Source of the DNA: Candidatus Methanoperedens sp.
Lineage (GTDB): Archaea > Halobacteriota > Methanosarcinia > Methanosarcinales > Methanoperedenaceae
Length of the DNA: 41,703 nt
Assembly: GCA_027460585.1 (NCBI GenBank)
Contig: JAPZAP010000132.1
Location: forward strand, 1 to 41,703
Direction: 5' to 3'
Under the pieces are notes generated by a model. The model had not been told where the DNA came from, ran no database searches, and saw only the letters and a list, made by a program, of their open reading frames with translations. Position numbers and translations under genes: made by a program. This document shows positions 3,454 to 25,131 of the stretch, piece after piece; the first letter of the stretch is position 1, and each line of letters begins with the position of its first letter.

Positions 3454-3831
3454 ATGACATTAAATGCAATACTGATAACTGGAAGAACGATAAACCAGGG
3501 AGCAACTATTGAAAACAAGACGTCCTCGGACTATCAGGAAGCGACTGCCTTGTGTGAATTGAACTCTAAAGATATTGGTCTCCTGGGGATCAAGCCCGGA
3601 AGCCGCATATCAGTCAAAACGGATCACGGTGATGTGGTTGTAAAATTAAAAGAGAACAATGGAAATCCTGACGGGCTGGCGTTCATTCCAATGGGCCCAT
3701 GGGCAAATGCCGTAGTTGATCCTGATACTAAGGGTTGCGGGATGCCGGGATTTAAAGGAATTAAGGCACGTTTAGAGCCTACGGATAATAAAGTATTATC
3801 AATGAAAGAATTGATCGCGAGGTATAAGTAA
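3454..3831 (+). CDS. fwdD: Formylmethanofuran dehydrogenase subunit D
   Basis: A 125-residue protein matching FwdD/FmdD, the small subunit equivalent to the C-terminal molybdopterin-dinucleotide-binding barrel of formate dehydrogenases. The recognisable stretch is PMGPWANAVVDPDTKGCGMP at about 80-99, followed by FKGIKARLEP. In the complex it covers the W/Mo cofactor carried by FwdB. The start is an ATG behind GAGGGTG. It is the first gene of fwdDBAC, and its stop overlaps the fwdB start by one base. The operon catalyses reduction of CO2 to formylmethanofuran, or the reverse oxidation in methanotrophic archaea. Confidence 0.93.
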   Translation: MTLNAILITGRTINQGATIENKTSSDYQEATALCELNSKDIGLLGIKPGSRISVKTDHGDVVVKLKENNGNPDGLAFIPMGPWANAVVDPDTKGCGMPGFKGIKARLEPTDNKVLSMKELIARYK

Positions 3832-5129
3832 TGACTATAATAACAGATGCACTTTGTCCGTTCTGCGGCTGCGTGTGTGATGACCTGACAATTATTGTGG
3901 AAAATAACAAAATAACTGATATTAAGAATGCCTGCAAACTGGGCGCTTCGAAAATAATGGGGCATCACAGGATAAAAGCCCCGATGATGAGGGCGGATAA
4001 GAAATCAGATTTCAAGGAAGTCTCTTTTGATGAAGCCATAAATGAAGCAGCACAGATACTTTTCAAATCAAAAAGACCTTTAATGTATGGATGGGCTTCA
4101 GCGCTTTGTGAAGTCCACAAAAAAGGCATCCTATTGGCAGAGGAAGTAGGGGCAATTATAGACAATACGGCAACGGTGTGCCATGCGCCTTCAACGCTTG
4201 CAGTTCATGAAAAAGGTCTTCCGTCAGCAACCCTTGGCCAGGTAAAGAACCGTTCAGATGTTACAGTATTCTGGGGAAGCAATCCGGTGCATGCCCATCC
4301 AAGGCATATGGGACGATATTCTGTTTTTGCAAAAGGATTCTTCCAGGAAAAAGGAAGAAAAGGAAGAAAGGTCATAGTGGTAGATGTAAGAAAGACAGAA
4401 ACAGCAGCAATGGCGGATGAATTTGTCCAGTTGCAGCAGGGAAGCGATTACCTTGTTATATCTGCTCTTCGCGCCATACTTTCAGGGCATGCGGATGTTG
4501 TGCCTGAATCGGTTGGCGGTGTTCCAAAAGAACAACTTGTAAAACTCGTAGATACACTGAAGGCTGCAAAATTCGGTTCGATCTTTTTCGGTATGGGTCT
4601 TACCCAGAGCATATCCCGATACAAGAACATAGATAATGCCATTTCGCTCATAACTGAGTTGAACGCATTTACAAAATACGTAATATCACCCATGCGTGGG
4701 CACTATAATGTCACTGGTTTCGGCCAGGTATGCACATGGGAAACTGGTTTTGCTACTGCTGTGGATTTTGCCCGCGGGGCGCCGTATTATAATCCCGGTG
4801 AGACCGCGGCGAACGATGTTCTCCTGAGGAAAGAAACAGATGCAGCGATGATAATAGCAGGCGATGCAGGAGCTCATTTCCCGGCAGATTCTGTCCGCCA
4901 TCTTGCAAGGATCCCTGTAGTCCAGATAGACCCGTACTGGAATCCCACAACAGAGGTCTCCAATGTAGTCATTCCGGTGGCAATTTGCGGCGTCGAGGTT
5001 GAGGGGACTGCTTACAGGATGGATGGTGTATCCTTGCGGATGAGGAAGATGATTGAACCCACACTGCCGACGGATGTTGAGGTTCTTGATAGGATAACAG
5101 AAAGAGTGAGAGAATTAAGGGGTGAATAA
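3831..5129 (+). CDS. fwdB: Formylmethanofuran dehydrogenase subunit B (W/Mo catalytic subunit)
   Basis: A 432-residue catalytic subunit of the formate dehydrogenase/DMSO reductase superfamily. The N-terminus carries the cysteines for one 4Fe-4S cluster (CPFCGCVCDD, residues 9-18, plus C35). Cys117 in the TVCHAPS motif is the expected metal ligand and corresponds to Cys118 of the structurally known Methanothermobacter enzyme. It is encoded by TGC, so this is a cysteine and not a selenocysteine isoform. GSNPVHAHPRHMGRYSVF (about 151-168) is a conserved cofactor region. Tungsten or molybdenum cannot be decided from sequence alone. The gene is translationally coupled to fwdD. Confidence 0.95.
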   Translation: MTIITDALCPFCGCVCDDLTIIVENNKITDIKNACKLGASKIMGHHRIKAPMMRADKKSDFKEVSFDEAINEAAQILFKSKRPLMYGWASALCEVHKKGILLAEEVGAIIDNTATVCHAPSTLAVHEKGLPSATLGQVKNRSDVTVFWGSNPVHAHPRHMGRYSVFAKGFFQEKGRKGRKVIVVDVRKTETAAMADEFVQLQQGSDYLVISALRAILSGHADVVPESVGGVPKEQLVKLVDTLKAAKFGSIFFGMGLTQSISRYKNIDNAISLITELNAFTKYVISPMRGHYNVTGFGQVCTWETGFATAVDFARGAPYYNPGETAANDVLLRKETDAAMIIAGDAGAHFPADSVRHLARIPVVQIDPYWNPTTEVSNVVIPVAICGVEVEGTAYRMDGVSLRMRKMIEPTLPTDVEVLDRITERVRELRGE

Positions 5130-5130
5130 A

Positions 5131-6843
5131 ATGGAACTTCTTATAAAGAACGGCGCGGTCTTTGACCCGGTAAATGGCATTAAGGGTGATAAAACCGATA
5201 TTTCCGTAAAAGATGGCAAGATCGTAAACAATGTGAGCAGCAAAGCCACAGTTTTAGACGCGGGAGGACGGCTTGTTATGGCAGGCGGTGTTGATGCCCA
5301 TTCCCATATAGCGGGGGCAAAGGTCAATGTGGGAAGAATGATGCGCCCTGAGGATAGCAGATCAGGTATTTCACCCAGGACAAAAATAACAAGACCCTGT
5401 ACAGGATACACGGTGCCCAACGTCTATGCCATGGGATATCGCTATGCTCAGATGGGTTATACTACTGTTTTTGAGGCTGCGCAGGCTATTATGAAAGCGC
5501 GGCATACGCATGAGGAACTCGAAGAGATCCCGATCATCGACAAGGGCGCGCTCACTCTTTTCGGGAGCAACTGGCCTACAATGGATTTTGTGCGCGAGAA
5601 AAATATGGATAAGCTTGCTGCTTATGTTGCATGGGGCCTTCTTGCAAGCCGCGGATTTGGCATCAAATGCGTAAACCCTGGCGGCGGCGAGATGTGGGGC
5701 TTTGGCAAGAACGTGACGGGTCTTGATGATGTCGTTCCGAGTTTTGATGTAACACCAAGGGAGATCATTGTATCTTTGATGAAAGTCAACGAGATGCTGG
5801 GACTTCCACATTCAGTGCATCTGCATTGTAATAACCTTGGAAATCCGGGAAATTATAAGACTACTCTTGCAAGTATGGAACTTGCAAACCAGGTCAAAGC
5901 CAGCAAGGACAGGCAGGTAATGCATGTAACTCATCTATTGTTCAATTCATGGGGAGGAACCAACTGGGGCGACTTTGAATCAAAAGCCGATGAGATCGCC
6001 AATTTCCTGAACAATCATGATAATATTACAGGTGACATGGGACAGATGATATTTGGTAGTGCAACTACCATGACCGCAGATGGTCCCAAGCAATATGCCA
6101 ATGCAAAATTATTGCATGCAAAATGGAGCAATGGGGATGTTGAACTTGAAGATGCATCCGGTGTTGTTCCTATTTATTATGTAAAACAGATTTCAGTTCA
6201 TGCCATAATGTGGGCAATAGGTCTTGAACTAGCTTTACTGACAAAAGACCCGTATAAGATGCTTTTGACCACTGACCACCCCAATGGCGGTCCGTTCGTC
6301 AATTATTCGGAGGTAATATCACTTCTCATGAGCAATAAGAAGCGCCAGGAAGAGATCAAGACGGTTCATGAAGCGGTACACGCAAAAACAAAATTGCCCG
6401 GGCTTGATCGTGAGCTTGACTTTAGCGAAATAGCCATCATGACAAGAGCTGGTACATCAAAAGTGCTGGGGCTTCTTGATACGAAAGGGCATCTTGGCGT
6501 TGGCGCCGATGCGGATATTTCAATATATGACATCAAACCTGACCAGATCGACCCGTCAGTTGAGCATGCAAAGATAAAAAGCGCATTCTCATCCGCTGCT
6601 TATACGATAAAAGGCGGCCAGGTGGTCGTGAAGGATGGACAGATCACAGCAACACCCCTGGGAAGGACATACTGGGTCGATGCAAAAGTCCCGCAGCAGC
6701 ATCACGATGAAATGATGAAGGATATAGTCAGGAAATTCAAGAATTATTATTCGATACAACTTGCAAATTACATGGTGCAGGATGAATATGTCTCTCATCC
6801 GCAGGTTATAAAAGCGGGAGCCATTCCAGTGGAGGTGAATTAA
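5131..6843 (+). CDS. fwdA: Formylmethanofuran dehydrogenase subunit A (amidohydrolase)
   Basis: A 570-residue amidohydrolase-superfamily subunit that joins formate and methanofuran at a binuclear zinc site. The expected ligands are present: DAHSH (H57, H59), the carboxylated lysine position K179 in GIKCVNPGGG, H230/H232, HVTH (H265/H268) and D382 in LTTDHPNGG, very close in number to the structurally characterised enzyme. I start at the ATG at 5131, one base after the fwdB stop, because the ribosome binding site (GGGGTGA, about 5119-5125) precedes it; the in-frame GTG at 5122 would use that same site. It forms the tunnel partner of FwdB. Confidence 0.95.
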   Translation: MELLIKNGAVFDPVNGIKGDKTDISVKDGKIVNNVSSKATVLDAGGRLVMAGGVDAHSHIAGAKVNVGRMMRPEDSRSGISPRTKITRPCTGYTVPNVYAMGYRYAQMGYTTVFEAAQAIMKARHTHEELEEIPIIDKGALTLFGSNWPTMDFVREKNMDKLAAYVAWGLLASRGFGIKCVNPGGGEMWGFGKNVTGLDDVVPSFDVTPREIIVSLMKVNEMLGLPHSVHLHCNNLGNPGNYKTTLASMELANQVKASKDRQVMHVTHLLFNSWGGTNWGDFESKADEIANFLNNHDNITGDMGQMIFGSATTMTADGPKQYANAKLLHAKWSNGDVELEDASGVVPIYYVKQISVHAIMWAIGLELALLTKDPYKMLLTTDHPNGGPFVNYSEVISLLMSNKKRQEEIKTVHEAVHAKTKLPGLDRELDFSEIAIMTRAGTSKVLGLLDTKGHLGVGADADISIYDIKPDQIDPSVEHAKIKSAFSSAAYTIKGGQVVVKDGQITATPLGRTYWVDAKVPQQHHDEMMKDIVRKFKNYYSIQLANYMVQDEYVSHPQVIKAGAIPVEVN

Positions 6844-7602
6844 ATGCAGACAGTTACTATAAAACCCAGGAAAGAGATAAAAATATCAGTTGAGGCTGAG
6901 AATATCTCGCCAGATAAATTCGGCGGAAAAACTGAAAAAGAGATACAATCACTTGTTGCATGGATGGGAAACCAGAAGACCACCCTCGGAGAGCTATTCT
7001 CGGTAAAAGTGGAAGGTTCCGGTCCTGCCGCAGACACAAAAATTGTACTTGAAGGAGATTTTTCACGCGTTAAGAGGATCGGCGAAGGAATGACTGCTGG
7101 CCTGATAATGATAAATGGCAATGTTGACATGCACCTTGGCGCAAAGATGAGCGGCGGCAAGATATCCGTAAAAGGAAACGTTGACTCATGGGCAGGAAGG
7201 GAAATGAAAGGCGGTGAGCTTATCGTTGAAGGAAATGCAGCTTATTACCTTGGCGCCGGATATCGCGGCGAGTCATGCGGTATGCGGGGCGGTAAAATTA
7301 CCGTTTTGGGCAATGCTCTTGATTTCGTTGGCGAGCACATGTGCGGCGGTGAGATATTCGTGAAAGGCAATACAGGAATCCTTCCGGGATTGAGCAACAA
7401 TGGGGGAAAGATCGTGATCGGAGGTAATACCAGCCGCCCTGGAAGCGAGATGTCAAAAGGCACAATAATCGTGAATGGAAAAGTGGATGAGATGATGCCT
7501 GTTTTCAAGCTTGAAGGCGATGAGGCTGTGGATGGTGTTACATATAAGAAATATACTGGTGACGTTATTGGAAATGGGAAAGGCCTGTTGTATGTAAAAT
7601 AA
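6844..7602 (+). CDS. fwdC: Formylmethanofuran dehydrogenase subunit C
   Basis: A 252-residue protein with the glutamate-synthase alpha C-terminal-like (GXGXG) beta helix. From about residue 85 onward it repeats a unit of roughly 19 residues of the form GGxIxVxGN (GGKISVKGN, GGELIVEGN, GGKITVLGN, GGEIFVKGN, GGKIVIGGN). FwdC is the structural scaffold on which FwdA and FwdB assemble. It directly follows fwdA and is the last gene of the operon. The fwdF/G/E polyferredoxin and electron-transfer subunits are not in this window. Confidence 0.94.
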   Translation: MQTVTIKPRKEIKISVEAENISPDKFGGKTEKEIQSLVAWMGNQKTTLGELFSVKVEGSGPAADTKIVLEGDFSRVKRIGEGMTAGLIMINGNVDMHLGAKMSGGKISVKGNVDSWAGREMKGGELIVEGNAAYYLGAGYRGESCGMRGGKITVLGNALDFVGEHMCGGEIFVKGNTGILPGLSNNGGKIVIGGNTSRPGSEMSKGTIIVNGKVDEMMPVFKLEGDEAVDGVTYKKYTGDVIGNGKGLLYVK

Positions 7603-7784: not shown

Positions 7785-7968
7785 AAATATATAAACTGTA
7801 AACTCGTATCCTAATTATACCCAAATTGACACCAAATTGTTACCAAATTGGGAAAATGGATAGGATAGGATGTAATGTAAAACAAAGCGTTTGTGTTATT
7901 CTTATTCTTGACATATCCAAATTGGATTTTGGGTTAATAGAAAATATGGATAGGATGTGAAACTAAAT
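7785..7968 (+). promoter_or_regulatory. Promoter and iteron-like repeats upstream of the 5-heme cytochrome
   Basis: A TATA-like AAATATATAA (about 7785-7794) predicts a start near 7818. Immediately after it, CCAAATTG occurs three times at exactly 11-bp spacing (7821, 7832, 7843), the third extended to the palindrome CCAAATTGG. A fourth CCAAATTGG lies at 7917-7925. The phrase ATGGATAGGAT occurs twice (about 7857 and 7947). The second copy leads into GGATGTGA, which serves as the ribosome binding site for the ATG at 7969. This looks like a phased operator array inside a leader of about 150 bases. Confidence 0.5.
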
Positions 7969-9021
7969 ATGAATGCGCAAACAACATTAGTCCTGATCTC
8001 AATATTAGGCGTAGGACTATTTGCCCTCCCTCAAACAACGGCTTTGTTTTCGGGACAACATAGTTTTGTCAATATTGACGCAACAGGAAACCAAATCGAC
8101 TGTGTAAAATGTCACGGCGATGTAAATGCTGAATTAACATCTGTAGCTTCAGCACCACATGTAGCGTTTACATGTGAAATGTGTCACAGGATTGAACCGG
8201 GTAAAGCCAGCGGTGATTCCTTGATATATTCATTGGCATATTCAGATGGTACAAACAACAGAACGCTGGTCATGTCTGAAACAGATTTCCAATCGGGACT
8301 GTTCCCAGCAAGTATTCCAAACAATGGTACAGTGACAATTGCCGGAGCACTCGCTTTCGCAGTCAGTAACAGCAATAATCCAGCTTTCATTGGAAACCTT
8401 ACACCAATTCTGAGTCATGGTTCTCCAGCAGAAGCATCACCAATAGAGTTACTGAATGCAGACGGTACACCAAAGGATACTAACAATGCAACCAAGTACA
8501 CTGGTGTGAGACTGTCCAAAGTAACAGCAGGACAGTGGAACATGACAGGAGCATACCCTGCAATTATACTTGATGGCCTCGGCTCAGAAGTAGTCAACCC
8601 CGGTACATCATACCACGCAGCATCCCTTGTATCATGCATGGAATGCCACGCAGGAGAAGCACCCCCAGGTCATGAGCAAGGCGACCTTTCAGACTGCTCG
8701 AACTGTCACTATGGCGGCGGTTCAATGGGCGGCCAGCAGATGAGAAATCTCTGGGCAGGCGGCTTCGGTCTGACGGCAAAAGCTGGCGACACAGGTGCAA
8801 TTGAAGCACACACCAACTTCCAGACCACAAACGACACGATCACCAGACAGAAGGATAATTCATCAAACGGCGCTTGTGTATCATGTCATACCCACGTCGC
8901 AGTGGACATTACCTACAGGAAGCCTGCGACCTATAAGTTCAATGCCAACGTCACCTCTGGAACATGGGGCGTCGGCGGATTCTCTGCAACAGGAGAAGTA
9001 ATATCGAACAGCACAGGTTGA
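7969..9021 (+). CDS. Secreted pentaheme c-type cytochrome, sequon-rich
   Basis: A 350-residue exported protein with a signal peptide (TLVLISILGVGLFALPQTTA). It has five CXXCH heme sites (CVKCH, CEMCH, CMECH, CSNCH, CVSCH), two near the N-terminus, two in the middle and one near the C-terminus. Many additional histidines near heme sites (GQHSF, APHVAF, SYHAAS, PPGHEQ, EAHTNF) suit bis-His ligation. At least nine N-X-S/T sequons occur, suggesting heavy surface glycosylation. There is no C-terminal membrane anchor. I start at the ATG at 7969; an in-frame GTG at 7957 overlaps the ribosome binding site. It is separated from the next gene by a terminator-like hairpin, as for an abundant structural subunit. 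Archaeal extracellular cytochrome filaments are known from Pyrobaculum and Archaeoglobus; membership here is inferred, not shown. Confidence 0.9.
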   Translation: MNAQTTLVLISILGVGLFALPQTTALFSGQHSFVNIDATGNQIDCVKCHGDVNAELTSVASAPHVAFTCEMCHRIEPGKASGDSLIYSLAYSDGTNNRTLVMSETDFQSGLFPASIPNNGTVTIAGALAFAVSNSNNPAFIGNLTPILSHGSPAEASPIELLNADGTPKDTNNATKYTGVRLSKVTAGQWNMTGAYPAIILDGLGSEVVNPGTSYHAASLVSCMECHAGEAPPGHEQGDLSDCSNCHYGGGSMGGQQMRNLWAGGFGLTAKAGDTGAIEAHTNFQTTNDTITRQKDNSSNGACVSCHTHVAVDITYRKPATYKFNANVTSGTWGVGGFSATGEVISNSTG

Positions 9022-9041
9022 ATAAAGTAAGATACAATCGG

Positions 9042-9070
9042 GATGGGTTTATCCCATCTCTTTTTTTTTT
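9042..9070 (+). terminator. Intrinsic-terminator-like hairpin between cytochrome genes
   Basis: GATGGG (9042-9047) pairs with CCCATC (9053-9058) around a TTTAT loop and is followed two bases later by a run of ten T (9061-9070). It sits 20 bases after the stop of the 5-heme cytochrome gene and 25 bases before the next start, so it likely lets the first gene be expressed well above the rest. Confidence 0.65.
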
Positions 9071-9094
9071 AAAAAAACAGGACGGCGAAATCCC

Positions 9095-9664
9095 ATGAAA
9101 AACACAAAACTCAAGATTTCGGTAAGCCTGATTCTAATTATTACATTTCTGACTATCCCGGCACTATCAACAGTGCCGAACAGCCATAAACAATTTATCT
9201 GTAATGATTGCCACAACGGGCGATTCTCTTACGGGGCAGAGGAAACCGGGGATGATTGCGGTAATTGTCACAATTACAGGGATGCAACGAATAAAATGGA
9301 TATTCCAAAACTTGAATCCCAGCATAACCCGAACACCTGTAAAATATGTCATGGGGTCAAAGACTTAAATGTGTTCCACACAATTCACGGGAATGTATCC
9401 GGCTCATGCAAAAGATGCCACGGTGATAACGGCAATGCCATACCTGATAAAAGTATCAATGAGTGTGGTGGATGTCACGGCGGGCAGGTACATGTCATCC
9501 ATAAGGATAACCTCACCCAGATATGCTCAAAATGCCACGGCTCACGCCCGGCATCTGAATCAGCCTCATCGACTAACGAAATGACTGCAGGGATTTATGC
9601 TAAAGTTGTAAATTATAAGCAATTCACGCTTTATGAAATATTTAATCGGATACTATCCTCATAA
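9095..9664 (+). CDS. Secreted hexaheme c-type cytochrome with FTLY C-terminal tail
   Basis: A 189-residue exported cytochrome. Residues 1-26 are a signal peptide with a hydrophobic core (SVSLILIITFLTIPAL). Six CXXCH sites follow (CNDCH, CGNCH, CKICH, CKRCH, CGGCH, CSKCH) in about 110 residues, a dense heme packing like small class III-type cytochromes. Free histidines such as NSHKQF, ESQHNP, VFHTIHG and VHVIHK can be distal ligands. After the last heme a Ser/Thr/Ala-rich linker leads to the tail YKQFTLYEIFNRILSS, which recurs in the cupredoxin-like protein of the same cluster. The role is probably electron relay near the cell surface; the tail may anchor or sort it. Confidence 0.9.
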   Translation: MKNTKLKISVSLILIITFLTIPALSTVPNSHKQFICNDCHNGRFSYGAEETGDDCGNCHNYRDATNKMDIPKLESQHNPNTCKICHGVKDLNVFHTIHGNVSGSCKRCHGDNGNAIPDKSINECGGCHGGQVHVIHKDNLTQICSKCHGSRPASESASSTNEMTAGIYAKVVNYKQFTLYEIFNRILSS

Positions 9665-9764
9665 AACATTTAATAATATTCTCATGAAAAACGCACCTTA
9701 AAGTGTCTGTTAATACAAAATAATAACTTATAACTATTAAGTCAATAAATAAAGGTTGATAAAT

Positions 9765-10217
9765 ATGAAAAAATCTACGGTCTTAATAGCGATCATCGTT
9801 GTCGCGCTCATAATTGGAGCAGTATATGTATCTATAGATAAAATAGAAAGCACACTGAACATCGGTAAACCAGCGTTGAAATTAACGATCTCAACACGTG
9901 TCAACGAATCAGACGGATCGCCAATAATCACAAACATGACCTTCGAGCAAACCCAGGTTATCTATAAAGGTGCTGATTCTCCGGTAGTTTTCCCGGATAT
10001 CAGCGTAATTGCAAGGAACGAATCCTTATTAGCTGATCCCATAAGCTATTGGGCGTCTGAACAACGGGTGGGAGGGAGCGAAAAACACACCCTTACCCTT
10101 GCATTCAGAGACTCTTTCAAACCCAAAACCGGTGATTTACTTATCCTTACGATCCGTTTCACCAGTTACAAAGGGAATATTCTCGGAAAGAATACGGCAT
10201 TCTATGAATGGAAATAA
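9765..10217 (+). CDS. Membrane-anchored beta-rich protein of the cytochrome cluster
   Basis: A protein of 150 residues starting at the ATG at 9765, behind AGGTTGAT; an in-frame TTG at 9756 is less likely. One N-terminal membrane helix (about 6-25, VLIAIIVVALIIGAVYV) is followed by an extracellular domain that looks all-beta (alternating hydrophobic strands such as ALKLTISTRV and LLILTIRFTSY). Three sequons are present and there are no CXXCH sites or cysteines. I do not recognise the family. The 8-heme cytochrome gene starts inside its last codons, a 14-base overlap, which implies coupled translation. It could be an assembly factor or a membrane tether for the conduit. Confidence 0.75.
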   Translation: MKKSTVLIAIIVVALIIGAVYVSIDKIESTLNIGKPALKLTISTRVNESDGSPIITNMTFEQTQVIYKGADSPVVFPDISVIARNESLLADPISYWASEQRVGGSEKHTLTLAFRDSFKPKTGDLLILTIRFTSYKGNILGKNTAFYEWK

Positions 10218-11031
10218 ATATGGAATCTTGCTTGTAGCACTTATAGGAATAATACTGTGGAATACTCCAAGCACAGTATCACTATTAGTTGATTCCCACG
10301 CATTCTATAATGGCAGCGCCCCATGTTCAAAATGCCATGGTGATATTCTGGCGCAGCTTGAAGACTCAGGAAGCGTGAACGCAATGCACCGGAATCTTGA
10401 CGGGGAAAACGGGTGCAGATCATGTCACTCAAACCCTGTCAATATATCGGGCAGGAACGCCACCGAAGACTATCATTCAGCATATAAACCAGAATGCATC
10501 GGGTGTCACCAGAACGTTTCATCTATCAATAACTCTCGGGAAGCACACTTGCTTATTGTCAGTGAGGCGAATAAGTCCTCACAAAATCTTGGACTGAACG
10601 AAGCGTGTATCATGTGTCATACCACTTTGGTAAGCGAGGTAATAGTACGGAACCGTCTTGTATTCCCGTTCGAGAATGACAGCGTTGCAGCGAACGGGTC
10701 GGTGGAATATAACGGCACATACACTACCACTATCTCAAATCCGGGACCAACAGGGCTCCACAATTTCAATAGCGGAGTCCAATGCATTATGTGCCATGCC
10801 CCGGTTCAAGATATAATAAGCCAGGACCGTGTGCCATATTCAAATCATAGTGTCCTGGCATGCAAAGATTGTCACAGGAATACGACCTCAAGTCCGCAAG
10901 AATTTCATGCAGCAAAGATAGTATATTGCAGTGATTGCCACGACCTGGGCGCTCATCAACCATTATTATCAAGGGATTGCAACAAGTGCCATGAATCTCA
11001 CGGCGGTTTGAAAGCGAACTGGAGCGAATGA
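10204..11031 (+). CDS. Secreted octaheme c-type cytochrome, sequon-rich
   Basis: A 275-residue protein started at the ATG at 10204, because the signal peptide (KYGILLVALIGIILWNTPST) begins there; the longer open frame overlaps the previous gene. It has eight CXXCH sites (CSKCH, CRSCH, CIGCH, CIMCH twice, CKDCH, CSDCH, CNKCH) and about twelve N-X-S/T sequons. Its N-terminal heme module (SHAFYNGSAPCSKCHGD) resembles that of the 5-heme cytochrome (QHSF followed by CVKCHGD), so the two probably share ancestry. There is no membrane anchor at the C-terminus, which ends NWSE. It is translationally coupled on both sides. It may extend or cap the electron path. Confidence 0.9.
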   Translation: MNGNKYGILLVALIGIILWNTPSTVSLLVDSHAFYNGSAPCSKCHGDILAQLEDSGSVNAMHRNLDGENGCRSCHSNPVNISGRNATEDYHSAYKPECIGCHQNVSSINNSREAHLLIVSEANKSSQNLGLNEACIMCHTTLVSEVIVRNRLVFPFENDSVAANGSVEYNGTYTTTISNPGPTGLHNFNSGVQCIMCHAPVQDIISQDRVPYSNHSVLACKDCHRNTTSSPQEFHAAKIVYCSDCHDLGAHQPLLSRDCNKCHESHGGLKANWSE

Positions 11032-11723
11032 CGATGGACCTGACCTACAAAGGAACAGATATATCAGTAGGGCTTATTGTATCTGGAATTGTCCTGATCC
11101 TCCTTGCAGTATTCTATCTCTACAAAAAAGAGAACAGGATAATAATCGGTCTGATAGCTTCACAACGCAAACCCCGCCGTGCAGAATTGAAGCAAGATAC
11201 GACTGGAAAAGACTGGATGCTGTTCGTAATCGTTCTTGCCATGGTCGTCATCCTTGGTTTAAAATTGGTCTCACCTATAGTCATTGTTTCAGACTCGATG
11301 AAACCGGAATTTCAACGGGGGGACTTGATTATCGTCCAATCTGTATTTTTGAAACCAGAAGTTGGCGATATCATCACGTTCAATGTAAAAACCAATATTA
11401 ATGATATAAGCCACAGGGTAATAAGCATAAGCAACAGCGCAATAATAACAAAAGGCGATAACAATCCCAGAAAAGACGATTATGCCACGACACAGAAAGA
11501 TATTAAAGCCAAGGCCATCCAATTCAATAACCACCCGCTTGTAATAAAGACCCTGGGTGCACTGTTTATCATTGATTATTCGAAACAGGGCATTATATAT
11601 AAATTCGGAGACCAGTTCACTTTCCTGCAGAAGCTTTCAGCTACCATAAAATCCTGGGGAATAGTAATAACGATACTCTCACTACTAGGATATGTCATGA
11701 TGATGCAGAGGAAAAGACGATGA
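11028..11723 (+). CDS. Signal peptidase I, archaeal Sec11 type
   Basis: A 231-residue S26 family signal peptidase. The catalytic set is visible: nucleophile S90 in VSDSMKPEFQRGD, H129 in ISHRVI and aspartates in TKGDNNPRKDD (D144, D150). Using His in place of the bacterial Lys is the archaeal/eukaryotic Sec11 pattern. Membrane segments are at about 12-31, 63-83 and 205-226, with the active site outside. It starts by a 4-base ATGA overlap with the 8-heme cytochrome and ends in another with the next gene. A signal peptidase inside a cytochrome operon suggests dedicated processing of these secreted proteins rather than the general secretory function. Confidence 0.9.
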   Translation: MTMDLTYKGTDISVGLIVSGIVLILLAVFYLYKKENRIIIGLIASQRKPRRAELKQDTTGKDWMLFVIVLAMVVILGLKLVSPIVIVSDSMKPEFQRGDLIIVQSVFLKPEVGDIITFNVKTNINDISHRVISISNSAIITKGDNNPRKDDYATTQKDIKAKAIQFNNHPLVIKTLGALFIIDYSKQGIIYKFGDQFTFLQKLSATIKSWGIVITILSLLGYVMMMQRKRR

Positions 11724-12601
11724 GCGATCCAGAGATAACAAAAGAACGGGTCAGTAAGCCTAAAGGAAAACTAAAGGTAAAGCTTGCACCGATATCTTCA
11801 ATAAGTTCGATCTTATTAGGCGGCATTATAGCGCTCATCTCTACGTTCTCATTCATAGTGGATATATTTGCGACCCAGAACCCGATAGCACTGTTGATAG
11901 ATATTTTCGTTATGACGATATCTTATTTGACAGTATGGCAGGGAATTTACTATTCTATTCTGGACAGGATAGCAAAAGAAAAAATGGAAGAGCAATGGGA
12001 TTACAGGATTCAGCCGATCCTGAACCTTCTTACGGAGACATCAGGCCGGATTGATTCAATAGAAGAAGAAATTGTCAGAACGAATCATAAGCTGAACACG
12101 ACACTGGATTATTTCATGAGAGATGAAGACATGGACGCATCAAGGACTTTCATTCTCCCAGGGGTATCGTTCAAATTCATTTCGAAGATACTTGTACTGA
12201 TATTCTTTACATTTTCAGCATTGGTGTATGTTTCATCATACCCGCTGGGTATAGTCCATTATTTCATTCTTGCAATCTATCTGTCATGGTGGGTTTTCAT
12301 AACTGCAGAATTCAAGCTCTTTGACAATTCAATTGCATGGACATGGGCGATGGGCCCTATATTGATCATTCCGTCTGTTGGTATCATAATGAGTGCTATA
12401 TACGGGCTTAATATAATGATAGGGATATTGTTCTTAGCAATGCTGGTATATGTGTTTCTTTATTATTCCTGGGCGAGTTTTATTGCAACCGGCTATAAAT
12501 TGATAGACCTGAAACCTGTGATCAGGGAGCTAAAAGAGAAAATAAAGAAAAATAAACAACCGCGTATCAAAAAAGATGAACTCAAGGATATTAGAAAATG
12601 A
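11720..12601 (+). CDS. Polytopic membrane protein of unknown family
   Basis: A 293-residue protein with about six hydrophobic segments (roughly 28-50, 55-80, 148-172, 176-198, 208-232 and 234-256). A charged, likely coiled-coil stretch lies between the second and third (about 85-125, with EETSGRIDSIEEEIVRTNHK-like character), and both ends are basic. I do not recognise the family and see no catalytic motif. The four-base overlaps with the signal peptidase before it and the cupredoxin-like gene after it make co-translation likely. A membrane platform or export partner for the cytochromes is a reasonable guess but only that. Confidence 0.8.
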   Translation: MSDPEITKERVSKPKGKLKVKLAPISSISSILLGGIIALISTFSFIVDIFATQNPIALLIDIFVMTISYLTVWQGIYYSILDRIAKEKMEEQWDYRIQPILNLLTETSGRIDSIEEEIVRTNHKLNTTLDYFMRDEDMDASRTFILPGVSFKFISKILVLIFFTFSALVYVSSYPLGIVHYFILAIYLSWWVFITAEFKLFDNSIAWTWAMGPILIIPSVGIIMSAIYGLNIMIGILFLAMLVYVFLYYSWASFIATGYKLIDLKPVIRELKEKIKKNKQPRIKKDELKDIRK

Positions 12602-13362
12602 GCAGGAAGATAATTTTTCTGGTATTAATATTACTGATATTTTCTTCATTTCCAGTCGCAGGTGAGGTGTACGTGGTATTTACTGATCGAGAATTCGGAT
12701 TCTGGGCTGTCAGGTCAAACAATATAAACCACACGCTCAATTACTCTGGCAAGACCCTGAACATCAAAACAGGAGATTCTGTAGATTGGATGAATATGGA
12801 CACCGAAGGCGAGAGAATCACGATAGTGAGCGATAACGTCCTATGGGAAGGCGGCAAGGCTTTGGGGAGCACAGGAAATAAGTTCAGGTTCACTTTTAAC
12901 AGTTCCGGTGATTATAGATTTCATCTCGTCGAGAACACGAGAGTAAAACTGAATTTGTCAAATTACACTAAGAATCAAACAACAACCACGACCGTAACAT
13001 ACGAGGATGATGATGGCGAGCTTCATACGATCACAATCGACAGGGTCGATAACGACAAACTCAAAGATGCAATGAGCACTGAACAGTATAATTCTCAGCA
13101 GCAGACAATTCGAGTAACCGGCCCCACCATCGGGAACGGGACATATCCTATAAAAACCGCACAACTAACACAATCATTTTCACAATTCAAAGCAGCTATT
13201 CGTCCTGCGATACAGGTTAATGCCCGGCCAACCTCAACACCAGCAGCATCGGTCACCCAGGCGGAGGCAGCGGGATTTGCTCCCAAGCCTATGGAAAGTT
13301 ATCAGGAATTCACATTATATTCAATTTTAAAAAGATGGATGGATATAATTATTAGTGGTTGA
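12598..13362 (+). CDS. Secreted cupredoxin-like protein with FTLY C-terminal tail
   Basis: A 254-residue exported protein. A signal peptide (FLVLILLIFSSFPVAG) is followed by a plastocyanin/blitz-like beta domain at about 22-120: KTGDSVDWMNMD, ITIVSDN and KFRFTFNSSGDYRFHL follow the cupredoxin strand pattern. The protein has no cysteine at all, so a type 1 copper site cannot form. Seven sequons are present. A Thr/Pro/Ala linker (about 200-230) leads to the tail YQEFTLYSILKRWMDIIISG, sharing Y-x-[EQ]-FTLY-x-I-x-x-R with the 6-heme cytochrome. It is the last gene of the overlapping block. A structural or adhesive surface role is more likely than electron transfer. Confidence 0.8.
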   Translation: MSRKIIFLVLILLIFSSFPVAGEVYVVFTDREFGFWAVRSNNINHTLNYSGKTLNIKTGDSVDWMNMDTEGERITIVSDNVLWEGGKALGSTGNKFRFTFNSSGDYRFHLVENTRVKLNLSNYTKNQTTTTTVTYEDDDGELHTITIDRVDNDKLKDAMSTEQYNSQQQTIRVTGPTIGNGTYPIKTAQLTQSFSQFKAAIRPAIQVNARPTSTPAASVTQAEAAGFAPKPMESYQEFTLYSILKRWMDIIISG

Positions 13363-18519: not shown

Positions 18520-18578
18520 GATATTAGAGAAATAAATTTAAGAGTATATCAACAATAATTATATAATATTAATTATAC

Positions 18579-18896
18579 CGGCGCCCCACAAACCCCCGCG
18601 CAACCACCCATGCACCACATACCGATGCAATCAAAAAGGATACATCCCAGAAGCATCAGATATTCACATAAGGCTTCATTTGTGTCAAAAATAACAAACC
18701 GCAGATAAACGCAGATGAACGCAGATTTAATGCTATGGTTATTGAAAAACCCTACTAATTCAGACATCAAAATAATTATATAATATGTTTTATAAAATTT
18801 CCGGCGCACGATATGAACCACATGCAACCACCAAACGCAAAGGTGCGAAGGAAACGATAACAACGAACTCAAAACCAACTCAAACGAACTCAATAA
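18579..18896 (+). repeat. Two further interspersed repeat units with CGCAGAT words
   Basis: The unit occurs at about 18579-18637 (CGGCGCCCCACAAACCCCCG onward) and 18801-18845 (CGGCGCACGATATGAACCAC onward). In between, CCGCAGATAAACGCAGATG (from about 18699) leads into TTTAATGCTATGGTTATTGA, the same junction seen at 17341-17385. GAACTC words follow at 18860-18893. No gene was seen in 18520-18896. Confidence 0.75.
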
Positions 18897-19210
18897 ATTC
18901 CCGGCGCCCCGCAAACCCCCGCACAACCACCTGGCACAAAAGTACAGGTGCAATCAAAAAACTGATTGCCATGATAAATGCTCATAAACATTTTGGAAAC
19001 AGATATATATGACGGGGAATATTTACCCCGTATAATTTAATAAAAACATCTTCTGGATATACCAGTGATGCGGTGGTGTTCCAAATTTGGAAAAAAGTGG
19101 TATTACAACAAACATCAGCACAGAACAGTGGACGTGGGCAGCTTCCGGGAAGATTTGAAGGTGACCCTGAATGAACATTCTTATGACTTCTATTGTTGAT
19201 TTGAAGAAAT
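18897..19210 (+). repeat. 314-bp direct duplication, copy 2
   Basis: Second copy of 17735-18048, differing at scattered positions. It ends in a longer remnant of the same GT4 start (MNILMTSIVDLKK, from 19171). The two copies bracket the DUF4258/DUF2283 genes and two interspersed units, so recombination between them would delete or duplicate about 1.16 kb. Confidence 0.85.
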
Positions 19211-19278
19211 CCCAGCACAACAGACCGCACCAGTTTGTTAAGCATTTATCTAATTTAAAAGGATGGTGGAATAATTAA
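19171..19278 (+). pseudogene. Amputated N-terminus of a GT4 glycosyltransferase
   Basis: A 35-codon frame, MNILMTSIVDLKKSQHNRPH and on to FVKHLSNLKGWWNN, reads like the first beta-alpha unit of a family 4 glycosyltransferase (short strand, then the donor/acceptor loop with HRPHQ-type residues). It then jumps into the start region of the GT2 gene. The remaining 300 or more residues of the GT4 are absent. It overlaps the proposed GT2 start by 8 bases and may now serve as a leader cistron. Confidence 0.55.
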
Positions 19279-19981
19279 AATAATTGCAATTATACCAGCA
19301 TTCAATGAGCAAAAGAGCATAGGTAGTGTGGTTTTGTTCGCAAAAAAATACGTCGATGAAGTCATTGTTGTAGATGATGGGAGCACTGATCGCACATCTG
19401 AGATAGCAACGCTAGCAGGAGCAAAGGTTAAACGCCTTCCTTTCAACGAAGGTAAGGGAGCCGCTTTAAAGGTTGGTTTTGAAGGAGCAAGTAGGGCAGA
19501 TATCATCATTACCCTGGATGGAGATGGTCAGCATGATCCAGAGGAGATCCCAAAACTTATGGAACCGATCATAAAAGGTGAAAGCGACTTTGTGATTGGC
19601 AGTCGCTATATTAACGGAAATCGAAGGAATACTCCTTTATACCGCAGAGCAGGGCAGATATTATTTGACTGGATTACCAACAAGATTTGCAGGCTTCATA
19701 TCAGGGATACGCAGAGCGGGTTCAGGGCATTTTCAAAATATGCGGTGCCTGTATTCAGTTTCAGACAAAAAGGAATGGTGATTGAGAGCGAGATGCTAAT
19801 GGATGCCTCAAGAGCTTATCTCAGGATCAATGAAGTCGAGATTGCTGTGAAATACGTTGAGGATAAATTGACGTTAAACCTTATTTTGAAAGGATTAAAT
19901 ATATTGTCTGGTCTTATATTTCTAGCGTTTAATCCATTTAAAACAGGAGGGTTATTTCATGACAACAATTGGAATTATTAA
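19271..19981 (+). CDS. Family 2 glycosyltransferase, dolichol-phosphate mannose synthase-like
   Basis: A 236-residue GT2 enzyme of the DPM1/DPG synthase group. It has IIPAFNEQKSIGSVV, the nucleotide-sugar aspartates VVDDGSTDRT, the DxD-type LDGDGQHDPEEIPKL, GSRYINGNRR and the acceptor-loop DTQSGFRAFS. The key N-terminus lies upstream of the first usual start (GTG 19328), and the frame back to a stop at 19256 has no ATG, GTG or TTG. An ATA at 19271 gives MIKIIAIIPAFNEQ and lies 4 bases after GGATGG, so I take it as the start; ATT at 19274 is the alternative. There is no C-terminal membrane helix. It overlaps the next gene by 23 bases. Confidence 0.85.
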   Translation: MIKIIAIIPAFNEQKSIGSVVLFAKKYVDEVIVVDDGSTDRTSEIATLAGAKVKRLPFNEGKGAALKVGFEGASRADIIITLDGDGQHDPEEIPKLMEPIIKGESDFVIGSRYINGNRRNTPLYRRAGQILFDWITNKICRLHIRDTQSGFRAFSKYAVPVFSFRQKGMVIESEMLMDASRAYLRINEVEIAVKYVEDKLTLNLILKGLNILSGLIFLAFNPFKTGGLFHDNNWNY

Positions 19982-21461
19982 TCACAAACTGAATTATCTT
20001 GCTCTCGGTAGTATTATTGCAGTAACAAAGAAATATGTTGATAAAGTGTATGTTGTGCTAGATTATGAGGATAAGAATATTTCCGAGCTTGCCCTGTTAA
20101 TGGGGGCTGAAATCATCGAGCCGTCAAGAAATGGACATTTTTTAAATAAGATCGTGCAAGAAAACAATGCAAAAGTGGTTGTGGCATTATATGGCGATGG
20201 TACACATGATCCTAACAATATTAAGCTGCTTATTGATATTGTGATGAATGCTGAGTTTGAACTGGCAATAGAGTCATCAGGTGTTGAATATGATTCGTAT
20301 AACAATAGATTTTTAAACAGGGGAAAAGCACATCAAGAATCTTTAAAATGCGATCGTATCGGATTTGCGGTGTGCTCTGCCAAATGTATCGAGTCAATCA
20401 AGTCATTACGAAATAGTAATAATATTGCACAAGAGATGCTGATAAATGCGAAGAATAATAGTCTGAGAATTAAATATTTCAATTTTGCGTACGATAAAAA
20501 CTTCGGATTGCTAGATGTTTATAAAATAGGCGTGGTGGTCCCGGCATATAATGAGGAAGTCCTTATTCAGGAAACAATTGATGGGATCCCGAAATTCGTA
20601 AAAAAGATATATCTGGTCGATGATTGCAGTACGGATCGAACTCCAGAGATCATCAAAACAATGAAAGACTCAAGGATAGTTTCTATCCGTCATGAAAAGA
20701 ACAGGGGCGTTGGAGCTGCCATAGTAACAGGTTATAAATTAGGATTGAAGGATGAAATGGACGTTCTGGCGGTAATGGCAGGCGATAACCAGATGGATCC
20801 AGAGAATTTACCAAGTCTTATTATGCCGATCATAGATGGCCAAGCAGATTATACCAAAGGGAACAGGCTCATAAGCAAGAATTTTCGCAGCGGGATGAGT
20901 AAATGGAGATTTACTGGCAATGCAATGCTCACACTTATTACGAAGATCGGATGCGGGTACTGGCACATTATGGATCCTCAGAATGGATATACTGCAATAT
21001 CGAGGCAGGCTCTGGAAATCCTCGACCTTGATTCTATTTATCCTTATTACGGTTACTGCAACGACATGTTGATAAAGCTGAATACATTTGATATGAGAGT
21101 GATGGATGTGGTGATGCCTGCTCGTTATGGCAGGGAAAAATCAAAGATCAAATACAGCAGTTATATTAGAAAAGTAGCTCCCATGATCTTTCGTGGATTT
21201 TTATGGCGATTAAAGACAAAGTATATTATTCTTGATTTCCATCCGCTTGTTTTCTTCTATGTTGCAAGCATGGTCCTTTTACCAATCGGTGTAATTTTCA
21301 GCGCCTGGATATTGATAGAAAAAATATATCATAATCCGATATCACAAAATTATCCGCTGCTTGCTGTATTCATAACTCTTATGGGAGTCCAGTTTCTTCT
21401 TTTTGCCATGTTGTTTGATATGCAGGCTGATAAAAGCAGATGCGATTCTGCTTCAAGCTAG
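19959..21461 (+). CDS. Tandem GT2 protein: degenerate plus active domain, membrane-anchored
   Basis: A 500-residue protein. Residues 1-190 have the fold pattern of a GT2 domain but with lost catalytic words: INHKLN in place of PAFNE, VVLDYEDKN in place of VVDDGSTDR, yet YGDGTHDP retained. Residues about 191-420 are a normal GT2 domain (VVPAYNEEVLIQETI, LVDDCSTDRTPEI, AGDNQMDPENLP, MDPQNGYTAIS). Two C-terminal membrane helices follow at about 425-450 and 460-483. The ATG at 19959 has AGGAGG at about 19948-19953. It probably transfers a sugar to a lipid carrier, with the first domain serving regulation or pairing with the preceding GT2. Confidence 0.85.
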   Translation: MTTIGIINHKLNYLALGSIIAVTKKYVDKVYVVLDYEDKNISELALLMGAEIIEPSRNGHFLNKIVQENNAKVVVALYGDGTHDPNNIKLLIDIVMNAEFELAIESSGVEYDSYNNRFLNRGKAHQESLKCDRIGFAVCSAKCIESIKSLRNSNNIAQEMLINAKNNSLRIKYFNFAYDKNFGLLDVYKIGVVVPAYNEEVLIQETIDGIPKFVKKIYLVDDCSTDRTPEIIKTMKDSRIVSIRHEKNRGVGAAIVTGYKLGLKDEMDVLAVMAGDNQMDPENLPSLIMPIIDGQADYTKGNRLISKNFRSGMSKWRFTGNAMLTLITKIGCGYWHIMDPQNGYTAISRQALEILDLDSIYPYYGYCNDMLIKLNTFDMRVMDVVMPARYGREKSKIKYSSYIRKVAPMIFRGFLWRLKTKYIILDFHPLVFFYVASMVLLPIGVIFSAWILIEKIYHNPISQNYPLLAVFITLMGVQFLLFAMLFDMQADKSRCDSASS

Positions 21462-21755
21462 CGTTTTCTTTTAAATAAGTGCCATGATGTAAATTGCAAT
21501 GATCCCAATCTGAGGACTTCAGAAATGAAGGTAAGAGAGATATCGGTATTAACTAGTTATGGACCATCATCACAAAATAATCAAGCCATTAATCAGACGG
21601 TGTGCCGGGATGGAATTTCCAGCCAAGAATGGCCAGAAGAATATTTCAGGGTTCATCCACATGCGATCTTCCAGAAGAGGAAAAAAGCGCCGGACATTGG
21701 CAGGTAACGATTTTCTCCATACCGCCTGATCTGCAAGGATATTAAAAAAGTATAT
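21462..21755. other. Gap with no assignable gene
   Basis: A 60-codon + frame (21525-21707) and a 93-codon minus frame (21570-21851) cross here. The minus frame has protein-like stretches (DFSEDEIHRLKDYMNSHIYF, ADQAVWRKSLPANVRRF), but its first third is the antisense of the PIN fragment and I recognise no family. The region may be the scar where the N-terminal half of the PIN gene was lost. Confidence 0.3.
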
Positions 21756-22013
21756 GTGACTGTTCATATAATCCTTGAGTCTGTGAATTTCATCCTCCGA
21801 AAAGTCGGGTTTGATGCTGCGCTTGAAATGTTGGATATTTTTGAAAACCATGAAAAGATTGAGAAACTAAATATAGATTTGTTCCGTTTTGCACGAGCAT
21901 CAACCAGTTTGAAAAAGTATCCCGGATTATCCATTACAGATGCTTCAACAGTAGCAGTAATGAAGGAACTTGGAATAAAGAAAGTTTACACTTTAGATAA
22001 GGCTTTGATATGA
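21756..22013 (+). pseudogene. PIN domain toxin fragment, N-terminus missing
   Basis: About 85 codons match the C-terminal two-thirds of a VapC-type PIN ribonuclease: ILESVNFILRKVGFDAALE, then LSITDASTVAVMKELG carrying the acidic active-site Asp, then VYTLDKAL. The opening strand with the first catalytic Asp (the usual VxDSSxL) is absent, and the only starts are a GTG at 21756 or later. It is thus a truncated, probably inactive toxin. No antitoxin gene precedes it. Confidence 0.6.
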
Positions 22014-22346
22014 TAGACTGGTATAAGAAATGCAGCAGAGCTGAGAGTATAGTAATTTAGAATAAGTCCCATTTGTTATCGGCTAAGTAACCGACCAACC
22101 AGATTGGAATTCCAAGGCATCAGGAAAGTGCTCGATGGTATTTAATTTATATTGCGGGTTAGATTGTCTTGTTTTGTGATGCTGGGACAGTAACAAACTA
22201 TCAGTCAATCTCAATTCGTGCAATTTTAAATTGCTAGATTTATGAACGATAAAAAACTCAGATAAACAATAATAAATCTTAAAAATTAAATAAACTACAA
22301 AAATCGTCAATACCTTATTGAAATAAGGAATACATTGGATTTACTA
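22014..22346. other. Gap with no recognisable feature
   Basis: An AT-rich stretch of about 330 bases. A 75-codon minus frame (22083-22310) contains HELRLTDSLLLSQHHKTRQS and on, which is not random-looking, but I recognise no family. No repeat of the interspersed family is present. Confidence 0.25.
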
Positions 22347-22460
22347 ATGAAAAACGTAATATCAGAAAAGAAAAATGAAATTTCAAAAATCAATTGGAAA
22401 GTTCTTGAAATATTTTGGGCAGATCAATACGAAGAAGATTATGTAACAACCCCTCAGTAG
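22347..22460 (+). CDS. Small ORF with WADQYEEDY motif, possibly truncated
   Basis: A 37-residue frame: MKNVISEKKNEISKINWKVL then EIFWADQYEEDYVTTPQ. The core INWKVLEIFWADQYEEDY is repeated in the small ORF at 37069 (IDWNALDIGWAEQYDEDY), so both belong to one uncharacterised family. This copy ends just after the motif and may be truncated. No strong ribosome binding site is visible. Confidence 0.4.
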   Translation: MKNVISEKKNEISKINWKVLEIFWADQYEEDYVTTPQ

Positions 22461-22640
22461 GCATCGGTTTAGACAATCATTCCTCCCTAAATCGTTTTCT
22501 ATTGACCTGAAGATCTAGCGCTTGGCTTGAATAAACATTCATGACAGTATCAAAAATTCTTTCAACTTCACTATATTGAAGTATAAGGGTAAGCGGATCG
22601 CTGTTATTAAAATCGGGCACTGTCATAAAACAGACCGCAT

Positions 22641-22720
22641 AATATTCCGCTTCCTTTGCACTTGTGTAGCGCAGCACCACCCAATCCTGACGCTGGCAGA
22701 GTACTTCCTGGAAGAGATAT
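22641..22720 (+). pseudogene. Fossil N-terminal fragment of a polysaccharide deacetylase-like gene
   Basis: In one + frame these codons read FRFLCTCVAQHHPILTLAEY, closely parallel to FRSLCCAVAKHYPTITLAEY at residues 10-29 of the gene at 22922. DNA is also alignable between the two. Only this short piece survives; it is followed by unrelated AT-rich sequence. It records a tandem duplication of the deacetylase-like gene start. Confidence 0.5.
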
Positions 22721-22921
22721 TTTATTTTCATAACCAAAAGGATTATATTAATGAAAGATATTTAAAACGAGCAAGATATTATGAAAATAATGGTGGTATT
22801 AAATAATTATAGGGCACTTGTAAAAATGTATCTGGTGAACTATTATATTATCAATAACAAAATACCCATTGAAAAATATTAATTCGAAAAAAGTCAAGCA
22901 ATAAAAATACTCACAAAAACC

Positions 22922-23368
22922 ATGCCCCTCGATTTCACCCTCACCAAATTCCGCTCTCTTTGCTGTGCAGTAGCGAAGCACTACCCAACAATAACGTTGG
23001 CTGAATACTTCCAGGGAAATGACCTCCCTCCGCACTTTGCGATGATGCGCCACGATATTGACAGGAAGCCGGAGAATGCGCTTTTAACGGCAAGGATAGA
23101 AGCTGAGTCGGGAATAAGGGCGACGTATTATTTCAGGAGGTATGGAAGTGCATATCGTCCTGAGATCATGAGGGAGATAGAGGGGATGGGTCATGAGGTG
23201 GGATATCATTATGAGGTGCTGGGGAAGGCGAAGGGGGATTATGAGAGGGCTACAGAGATGTTCGAGCATGAGCTGGGGGAGTTCAGGGAGATATGCGATA
23301 TCAGGACGATCAGCATGCACGGGAGCTTAACCAATATCAGTTATATGATTAGCAATAGGAGTGATTAA
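22922..23368 (+). pseudogene. Polysaccharide deacetylase-like gene, C-terminally truncated
   Basis: 148 codons that match the NodB-like carbohydrate esterase fold used in archaeal EPS loci: MMRHDIDRKPENALLTARIE (metal-binding Asp pair in HDID), then ATYYFRRYGSAYRPEIMREI, then MGHEVGYHYEVLGKAKGDYE and TISMHGSLT. Relatives continue past MHGSPL for another 80 or more residues; here the sequence turns into NISYMISNRSD and stops right at the TTG of the next gene. G-rich codon use contrasts with the AT-rich gene that follows, so the junction at about 23328 looks recombinational. The product may be inactive. Confidence 0.65.
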
Positions 23369-24496: not shown

Positions 24497-24498
24497 AA

Positions 24499-25131
24499 AT
24501 GGTTGAAACAATTTTGATTTTATCTCCACACACAGATGATGGAGAAATCGGCGCAGGTGGAACAATTGCAAAATTCATTGAAGATGGAAAAGAAGTATAC
24601 TATGTAGCCTTTTCAAGCTGTGAAGCATCAGTGCCCGAGGGTTTTCCAAAAGAAACTCTAAAATTAGAATGTAAAAAAGCAATGAATGTATTAGGAATTT
24701 CGCCTAAGAATGTGACTTTTATGAATTATGGAGTCAGAACTTTTCCATCATATAGGCAGAAGATACTTGATGATCTAATAACCATAGGAAGAAAAATAGA
24801 ACCAAATTTAGTTTTGATACCTTCTTCAAGTGACATTCATCAAGATCATCAAATTATTCATGCAGAGGCTTTAAGGGCATTCAAAAAAACGTCTTCTATT
24901 TGGGGATATGAACATCCTTGGAATAATTTAACATTCACGACAGATGTTTTTGTTAATCTTGAAGAAAAACATATACAAAAAAAAATCAATGTTTTAAAAC
25001 AATACAAATCACAAGATTTTAGAACTTATTTCAACGAACAATACATAAAAGCACTCGCATATACAAGAGGGGCTCAAATAGATGTTTCTTTTGCCGAATC
25101 ATTTGAATTATTACGTATGCTGGTGGACTGA
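24499..25131 (+). CDS. PIG-L family N-deacetylase (LmbE-like)
   Basis: A 210-residue zinc-dependent deacetylase. The metal motif SPHTDDGEIGAGGTIAKF sits at 9-26 and the second His motif at about 113-117 (IHQDHQ). The family removes N-acetyl groups from GlcNAc-linked substrates such as GlcNAc-PI or glycosides, and in such clusters prepares an amino sugar for further acylation. It starts two bases after the DUF354 gene and its stop overlaps the start of the WbqC gene. Confidence 0.9.
   Translation: MVETILILSPHTDDGEIGAGGTIAKFIEDGKEVYYVAFSSCEASVPEGFPKETLKLECKKAMNVLGISPKNVTFMNYGVRTFPSYRQKILDDLITIGRKIEPNLVLIPSSSDIHQDHQIIHAEALRAFKKTSSIWGYEHPWNNLTFTTDVFVNLEEKHIQKKINVLKQYKSQDFRTYFNEQYIKALAYTRGAQIDVSFAESFELLRMLVD

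Follow-up and report, generated by a model that had tools for sequence, protein, structure and literature searches.

A multiheme cytochrome cluster in Candidatus Methanoperedens

The stretch analysed here, 41,703 nucleotides of Candidatus Methanoperedens sp. DNA (contig JAPZAP010000132.1; hereafter the window), carries seven consecutive genes which encode three multiheme cytochromes (cytA5, cytB6 and cytD8), a membrane-anchored protein (orfC), a signal peptidase, a polytopic membrane protein (memF) and a secreted protein (cupG) (Table 1). A sequence-only reading of the window had proposed these genes as an extracellular electron conduit, and all seven open reading frames (ORFs) were found as it had described them, each in its place on the + strand, with 5, 6 and 8 CXXCH motifs in the three cytochromes and with overlaps of 14, 4, 4 and 4 bases between the last five genes, orfC to cupG. 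In 2000 shuffled versions of each cytochrome the maximum number of CXXCH motifs was 1, 1 and 2 respectively. The start codon of cytA5 is either GTG 7957 or ATG 7969, with the alignment of relatives favouring 7969.

Three further claims of that reading fared less well. The cluster had been called self-contained, which it is not, since none of the seven genes was recognised by Pfam as a Ccm gene for heme attachment. The five-heme protein had been taken as the sequon-rich one, whereas N-glycosylation sequons are densest in cytD8 (12, shuffled mean 3.6, versus 9 in cytA5, mean 4.5). The last protein had been called cupredoxin-like, and its matches in Pfam and NCBIfam are all below cut-off; as cupG contains no cysteine it has no type 1 copper site, and a role as a blue-copper carrier was ruled out for want of the Cys ligand.

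Table 1. Features of the cytochrome cluster, with positions in the window.
Feature	Position	Strand	Basis
Three CCAAATTG repeats phased by 11 bp, candidate operator	7821..7850	+	Motif counts in window and 60 genomes
Fourth CCAAATTG copy, 52 bases upstream of cytA5 ATG	7917..7924	+	Motif count
cytA5, pentaheme ECN homologue, candidate filament subunit	7957/7969-9021	+	phmmer, alignments, family profile
N-terminal box (N-box) PQTTALFSGQH of cytA5 (residues 21-31), putative cut T-T-A↓LF, then conserved His	8029..8061	+	29-row alignment
Added fifth heme site of cytA5, codons of H235 and C243xxCH247	8671..8709	+	Invariant in 13/13 pentahemes
Stem-loop then T10, terminator-like, directly 3' of cytA5	9040..9070	+	Folding, T-run count
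cytB6, hexaheme, signal-peptide-like N-terminus, conserved hydrophobic C-terminal tail	9095-9664	+	ORF, family alignment
orfC, N-terminal membrane helix and Ig-like beta sandwich	9756/9765-10217	+	Predicted structure
cytD8, octaheme, N-box-like N-terminus	10204-11031	+	N-box hidden Markov model, E 1.2e-14
Cluster-type Sec11-like signal peptidase	11028-11723	+	TIGR02228
memF, polytopic membrane protein, possibly of the 8x TMH family (PMC9012536)	11720-12601	+	Hydropathy
cupG, secreted, weak cupredoxin similarity, no cysteine	12598-13362	+	ORF, Pfam/NCBIfam below cut-off

cytA5 and its candidate regulatory elements

Comparison of cytA5 with all PDB sequences using phmmer gave a sole match at E up to 1, 8e5g_A (E 5.9e-17), which is AvECN, the subunit of the extracellular cytochrome nanowire (ECN) of Archaeoglobus veneficus, a filament of solved structure (PDB 8E5G), and a cytA5-family profile of 38 rows likewise ranked 8e5g first (E 4.6e-61), with nitrite reductases following from 6.9e-06. 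Four CXXCH motifs and three histidines outside such motifs (H31, H216 and H281) were invariant in 29 homologues and again in the 38 rows, the two sets coming partly from the same genomes. These alignments show cytA5 to be homologous to AvECN over most of its chain, with the order of the hemes, the N-terminal box and the non-motif histidines in common and all four AvECN hemes kept. cytA5 differs from AvECN in a wider spacing of hemes 2 and 3 along the chain and in its fifth heme site, which is inserted between hemes 3 and 4 and of which neither the CXXCH (residues 243-247) nor H235 has a counterpart in AvECN in the family-profile alignment. By eye, a CX12CH-like motif was seen at the position of the fifth CXXCH in an ECN-like protein from an archaeon of the same order (L042:6176-7000).

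Because the 29 rows were picked by a pattern containing QH and the first CXXCH, the invariance of H31 is partly by construction. In a pattern-free check, for which the query was cytA5 residues 190-330 only, 71 of 78 distinct matches with an early CXXCH had QH ahead of it (GQH in 68 of these), and the seven others include several that begin partway into the protein and one with GGH. In AvECN three of the four hemes receive their distal histidine from another subunit (PMC12203936), and the number of hemes so ligated equals that of the invariant non-CXXCH histidines in the cytA5 alignments, an equality that is suggestive only.

Within the N-box P21 was invariant in 29/29 rows, and the precursors have LPxTx[AS]LFxGQH in common. 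Signal peptidase sites usually carry small residues at -3 and -1, and a cut at T-x-[AS]↓LF would fit this rule and place GQH near the mature N-terminus. The N-box model that recognised cytD8 gave no match to cytB6 (E 2.7), and cytD8 also matched the N-terminus of the 8e5g chain (E 2.9e-10), with cytA5 scoring higher.

All four copies of CCAAATTG in the window fall in 7821-7924; their number is as chance predicts, their clustering is not. The phased pair CCAAATTGNNACCAAATTG occurred at six sites in 60 genomes, five of them upstream of pentaheme genes (two in G000 and one each in G002, G018 and G020) and the sixth in G053, a genome for which the search for ECN gave no match, and the reversed pattern, used as a control, gave 0 sites in the same 60 genomes. 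On the 3' side, the stability of the stem in the window is unexceptional for that stretch of DNA (z -0.87). Of 20 distinct pentaheme genes 18 have a T-run of 6-10 behind them, preceded in 17 cases by a stem of at most -7 kcal/mol; the two that lack the run are that of L052 and the viral copy described below. Among the cluster genes a candidate operator and a terminator-like element were found only with cytA5. The five-heme protein had been put forward as the abundant structural subunit; its kinship with a nanowire protein stands and, with the candidate operator before it and the terminator-like element after it, it is likely to be abundant, the structural role itself being weighed below.

Gene order and the cluster-type signal peptidase

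Pentaheme and cluster-type signal peptidase were found in an identical set of 13 of 60 genomes, the window's own included, with best pentaheme matches of <=1.1e-37 (next genome 1.9e-16) and peptidase matches of <=2.7e-60 (next 4.8e-34). The two lie within one cluster in 10 of the 13; in G031 and G007 the contigs seem to break within the cluster, and G025 has the pentaheme and a hexaheme on a different contig, mid-contig. Most of the Methanoperedens clusters seen comprise one or two pentahemes, one or two hexahemes, orfC, a 4-heme ECN-like gene, which occupies the place of cytD8 in ten relatives, a protein of ~490-550 amino acids and the signal peptidase, followed by a 7-heme protein, memF or a giant 7-8-heme protein, and in G015 and G018 the pentaheme gene occurs twice in a row. 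The order peptidase-memF-cupG was seen only in the window, G025 and G031. G025 has orfC and an 8-heme gene ahead of it and the G031 contig ends at the gene ahead of the peptidase, so that the full seven-gene order was seen in neither genome, the contigs ending inside it or splitting it. The cluster is nevertheless real and conserved: much of its order recurs in relatives, which disposes of the lack of conservation that the sequence-only reading had named as one of its refutations.

Amongst the relatives, one locus (L042:2848-6091) has four similar tandem ECN genes with the same C-terminal ending, followed by a 4-heme gene, a 9-heme gene, the signal peptidase and memF. At four others, from Methanoperedens genomes (L031, L033, L034 and L037), genes of ~2000-3200 codons with 7-8 CXXCH adjoin the peptidase and end the cluster, three of the four running off the fetched stretch or being cut.

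The proposed Sec11-type signal peptidase was confirmed by a TIGR02228 score of 74.6 bits (cut-off 51.85) and by its conserved Ser/His/Asp motifs, the roles of which we take to be catalytic. A survey of 80 loci yielded 87 peptidase ORFs, which were divided into long (222 amino acids or more, n=59) and short forms (n=28), and neighbours within 5 kb were scored as multiheme if they had three or more CXXCH. Multiheme genes lay near 51/59 long versus 3/28 short forms (Fisher p 7e-12, the ORFs of related genomes not being independent), and of the three short forms one is a long form cut by the contig end (L209) and two share one locus (L239). Over the same distance an N-box cytochrome, memF and orfC accompanied 41/59, 38/59 and 26/59 long forms and 1/28, 0/28 and 1/28 short forms respectively. 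In a quick tree 25 housekeeping rows grouped together (100%) and the enzyme of the window was placed among multiheme-linked forms, in a clade of 13 rows (99%); G000 also has a second, short peptidase (C63), which at 42.2 bits is under the family cut-off. At the level of sequence, then, the cluster peptidase is shown to form a branch apart from the housekeeping enzyme. Among the best 80 of 167 matches in named genomes, in which many contigs end nearby and the LFW loci are counted as Methanoperedens-like, a peptidase was present within 5 kb of the ECN gene in 11/23 cases from Methanoperedens or like, 5/18 from Methanophagales, 1/4 from Syntrophoarchaeum, 3/5 from Methanosarcinales metagenome-assembled genomes (MAGs), 1/1 from a Halobacteria MAG, 0/1 from Methanoxibalbensis and 0/1 from a Euryarchaeota MAG.

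A signal peptidase inside such an operon is less unusual than had been thought. A signal peptidase and an 8x TMH gene have been described next to cytochrome clusters of anaerobic methanotrophic (ANME) archaea, including one of ANME-1, and a maturation role was proposed for them (PMC9012536). The main setting of that pair is with CcmF2 and giant S-layer cytochromes, versus an ECN cluster here, the peptidase and polytopic partner being common to both. The 8x TMH family is defined there by 8 helices and a Trp-containing loop and sits by the peptidase; memF also adjoins the peptidase, has five strong hydrophobic segments by hydropathy, and possibly belongs to the same family.

A virus-borne version and the proposed role of the cluster

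A version of the cluster was found at ~18,546-22,932 of a 74,458-bp IMG/VR contig, 3300020045_010174 (L148, with L158 and L159), our knowledge of a virus-borne form coming from this one contig of one sample. It comprises a pentaheme ECN, a small protein, a 5-heme protein, orfC, a 3-heme N-box cytochrome, the peptidase and memF, and the same contig encodes a large terminase (phrog_38, E 4.8e-90), a portal (PF04860, E 1.4e-13), a tail tube (PF18906, E 1.4e-07) and a neck protein (phrog_5, E 9.7e-06). The viral pentaheme falls inside the four-row clade of the window's protein (98%) and is the row most identical to it (52%), L047 being nearer by tree path. The G+C of the cluster (0.388) compares with 0.384 and 0.356 in the left and right flanks, and when 4.4-kb segments (13 in all) were slid along the contig, the largest tetranucleotide distance from the rest (0.222; range 0.156-0.222) was that of the segment covering the cluster start, so that the cluster may be a recent arrival or the contig a chimaera. 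Homologues of the viral terminase (31-33% identity) occurred in 3/34 genomes of the window's family and 0/26 others, a spread which fits a host from that family.

Taken together, these results suggest that the cluster probably builds an AvECN-type conductive filament from cytA5. A regulator on the phased CCAAATTG repeats would control the cytA5 promoter, and most transcripts would end after cytA5, with read-through supplying its partners at a lower dose. The co-encoded peptidase, perhaps held by memF, would cut the precursors at T-x-[AS]↓LFxGQH, and the freed N-terminal His could ligate a heme in the neighbouring subunit, as described for AvECN. cytD8, with its similar N-terminus, might cap or dock the filament base, whilst cytB6, through its hydrophobic C-tail, and orfC, through its membrane helix, might fix this base to the cytoplasmic membrane and pass on to it electrons derived from the oxidation of methane.

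Several observations weigh against such a filament. Its formation is something that we infer, no filament having been seen; the AlphaFold single-chain model of cytA5 was poor (predicted local distance difference test, pLDDT, 58.8), and with this model Foldseek returned 8e5g at the top but only at E 0.015 and VIA-align gave no match. The exact phased pair was missing from 9/13 pentaheme genomes, and the T-run comparison, in which runs >=6 followed 1/39 peptidase, 3/35 orfC and 1/22 memF genes, is unmatched because these controls are mostly followed by coding DNA. Eight of the 59 long peptidases had no multiheme gene within 5 kb (L045, L204, L206, L210, L211, L212, L213 and L240, of which the tree places the last with the housekeeping enzymes, its ORF being over-long) and 18/59 had no N-box gene within that distance, so that we only infer the specificity of the peptidase for the N-box. 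Lastly, whereas cytA5 has a linked peptidase and membrane module, 0/19 Archaeoglobaceae ECN loci, the A. veneficus locus not being among them, had a peptidase within 5 kb (L130 has it further off), and relatives of AvECN may therefore assemble without it.

A less probable reading, which we regard as unlikely, is that of a short membrane- or S-layer-bound relay without any polymer, cytA5 acting as a soluble or surface shuttle and the peptidase serving multiheme cytochromes in general. Related peptidases do lie by a multiheme gene without an N-box at eight loci (L190, L192-L195, L198, L202 and L205), a general role in cytochrome maturation has been proposed for the peptidase and 8x TMH pair (PMC9012536), and the single-chain cytA5 model offers no filament evidence; however, cytA5 is homologous to a filament subunit and keeps its non-motif histidines, and its gene has a candidate operator and a terminator-like element to itself, which would suit a subunit made in many copies. 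That the peptidase is a housekeeping variant with no special substrate, the clustering of which only secures co-expression, would agree with its match to the general archaeal model TIGR02228 and its kept catalytic motifs, but is improbable given the second, short peptidase in G000, the group of which separates with full support, and the contrast in multiheme neighbours between long and short forms. It is very improbable that the 4-heme or 8-heme partner is the filament subunit and cytA5 an accessory, even with a 4-heme ECN-like gene of the same heme number as AvECN in the cluster of ten relatives, since the candidate regulatory elements accompany cytA5 only, it is cytA5 that is doubled in G015 and G018, and cytA5 outscores cytD8 against 8e5g, a comparison that covers these two and not the 4-heme protein.

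Beyond the cytA5 filament itself, it is possible, though doubtful, that archaeal nanowires have an export and assembly route of their own (N-box label, cognate peptidase, membrane scaffold and Ig-like anchor), modular enough to be carried by tailed viruses of methanotrophic archaea, and that a virus may therefore wire up its host, or the host's partner, during infection. How electrons from methane are exported by archaea that have no outer membrane, and how nanowires are matured and assembled, are open questions. The cluster supplies candidates for the subunit, for a protease and its substrate, with a prediction of where the cut falls, and for a regulatory site, besides a copy borne by a virus. 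A virus with an electron-export cluster would tie viral ecology to anaerobic methane oxidation.

Proteins of the ECN kind are already known, what is new being the pentaheme form, its putative regulation, the cluster-type peptidase and the virus-borne version; we came across no paper that describes the pentaheme form, how it is regulated, or a version of the cluster on a tailed-virus contig. ECN was named by BLASTp in Ca. Methanoperedens BLZ2 and a Lake Cadagno MAG (PMC12246660), the heme number, the gene cluster and the term signal peptidase being absent from the text available to us. The BLZ2 protein is very probably of the cytA5 family, and BLZ2 contig NZ_NTMG01000084 has two pentahemes. A homologue of AvECN with exceptionally high expression in situ, MmcX, was reported from a Methanocellales archaeon; it belongs to a clade of 3-5-heme proteins which includes Methanoperedenaceae, and Shewanella oneidensis, a laboratory host with Ccm, was used for it (PMC11176372). 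On electrodes a 44.2- and a 6.7-fold rise was reported for two 5-heme cytochromes of Ca. M. nitroreducens, the locus tags of which are three apart, and on nitrate one of the pair ranked in the top two for expression (PMC10542353). L037 has two pentahemes, which may correspond to these proteins. The OmcZ/OzpA cluster of Geobacter, Methanoperedens and Borgs (PMC11208441, PMC10874420) is alike in co-encoding a protease with a secreted multiheme filament protein, but its cytochrome is of another family and OzpA is a subtilisin-type serine protease, versus the signal peptidase here. An OmcZ nanowire cluster, for which a prolyl isomerase would also be expected, was rejected for the seven genes, their ORFs having no subtilase or isomerase match and cytA5 having AvECN as its only PDB relative.

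Of the partner proteins, orfC has 25 aligned members and a confident model (pLDDT 90.7), the cytB6 family has 19 members and memF is represented by 38 ORFs, some of them duplicates, with five strong hydrophobic segments in L039, as in the window, and seven in L040. Upstream of the cluster lie a molybdopterin oxidoreductase gene (3831-5129), an amidohydrolase 3 gene (5122-6843) and a GXGXG gene (6844-7602), which presumably resemble those of formylmethanofuran dehydrogenase. Near ECN genes of two relatives (L032:1877-3619 and L044:3430-5181) is a GT-C mannosyltransferase-like protein (PMT_2), possibly for filament glycosylation. The window itself carries cell-surface polysaccharide genes at 19959-35858, encoding glycosyltransferases, a polysaccharide synthesis protein and a UDP-glucose/GDP-mannose dehydrogenase.

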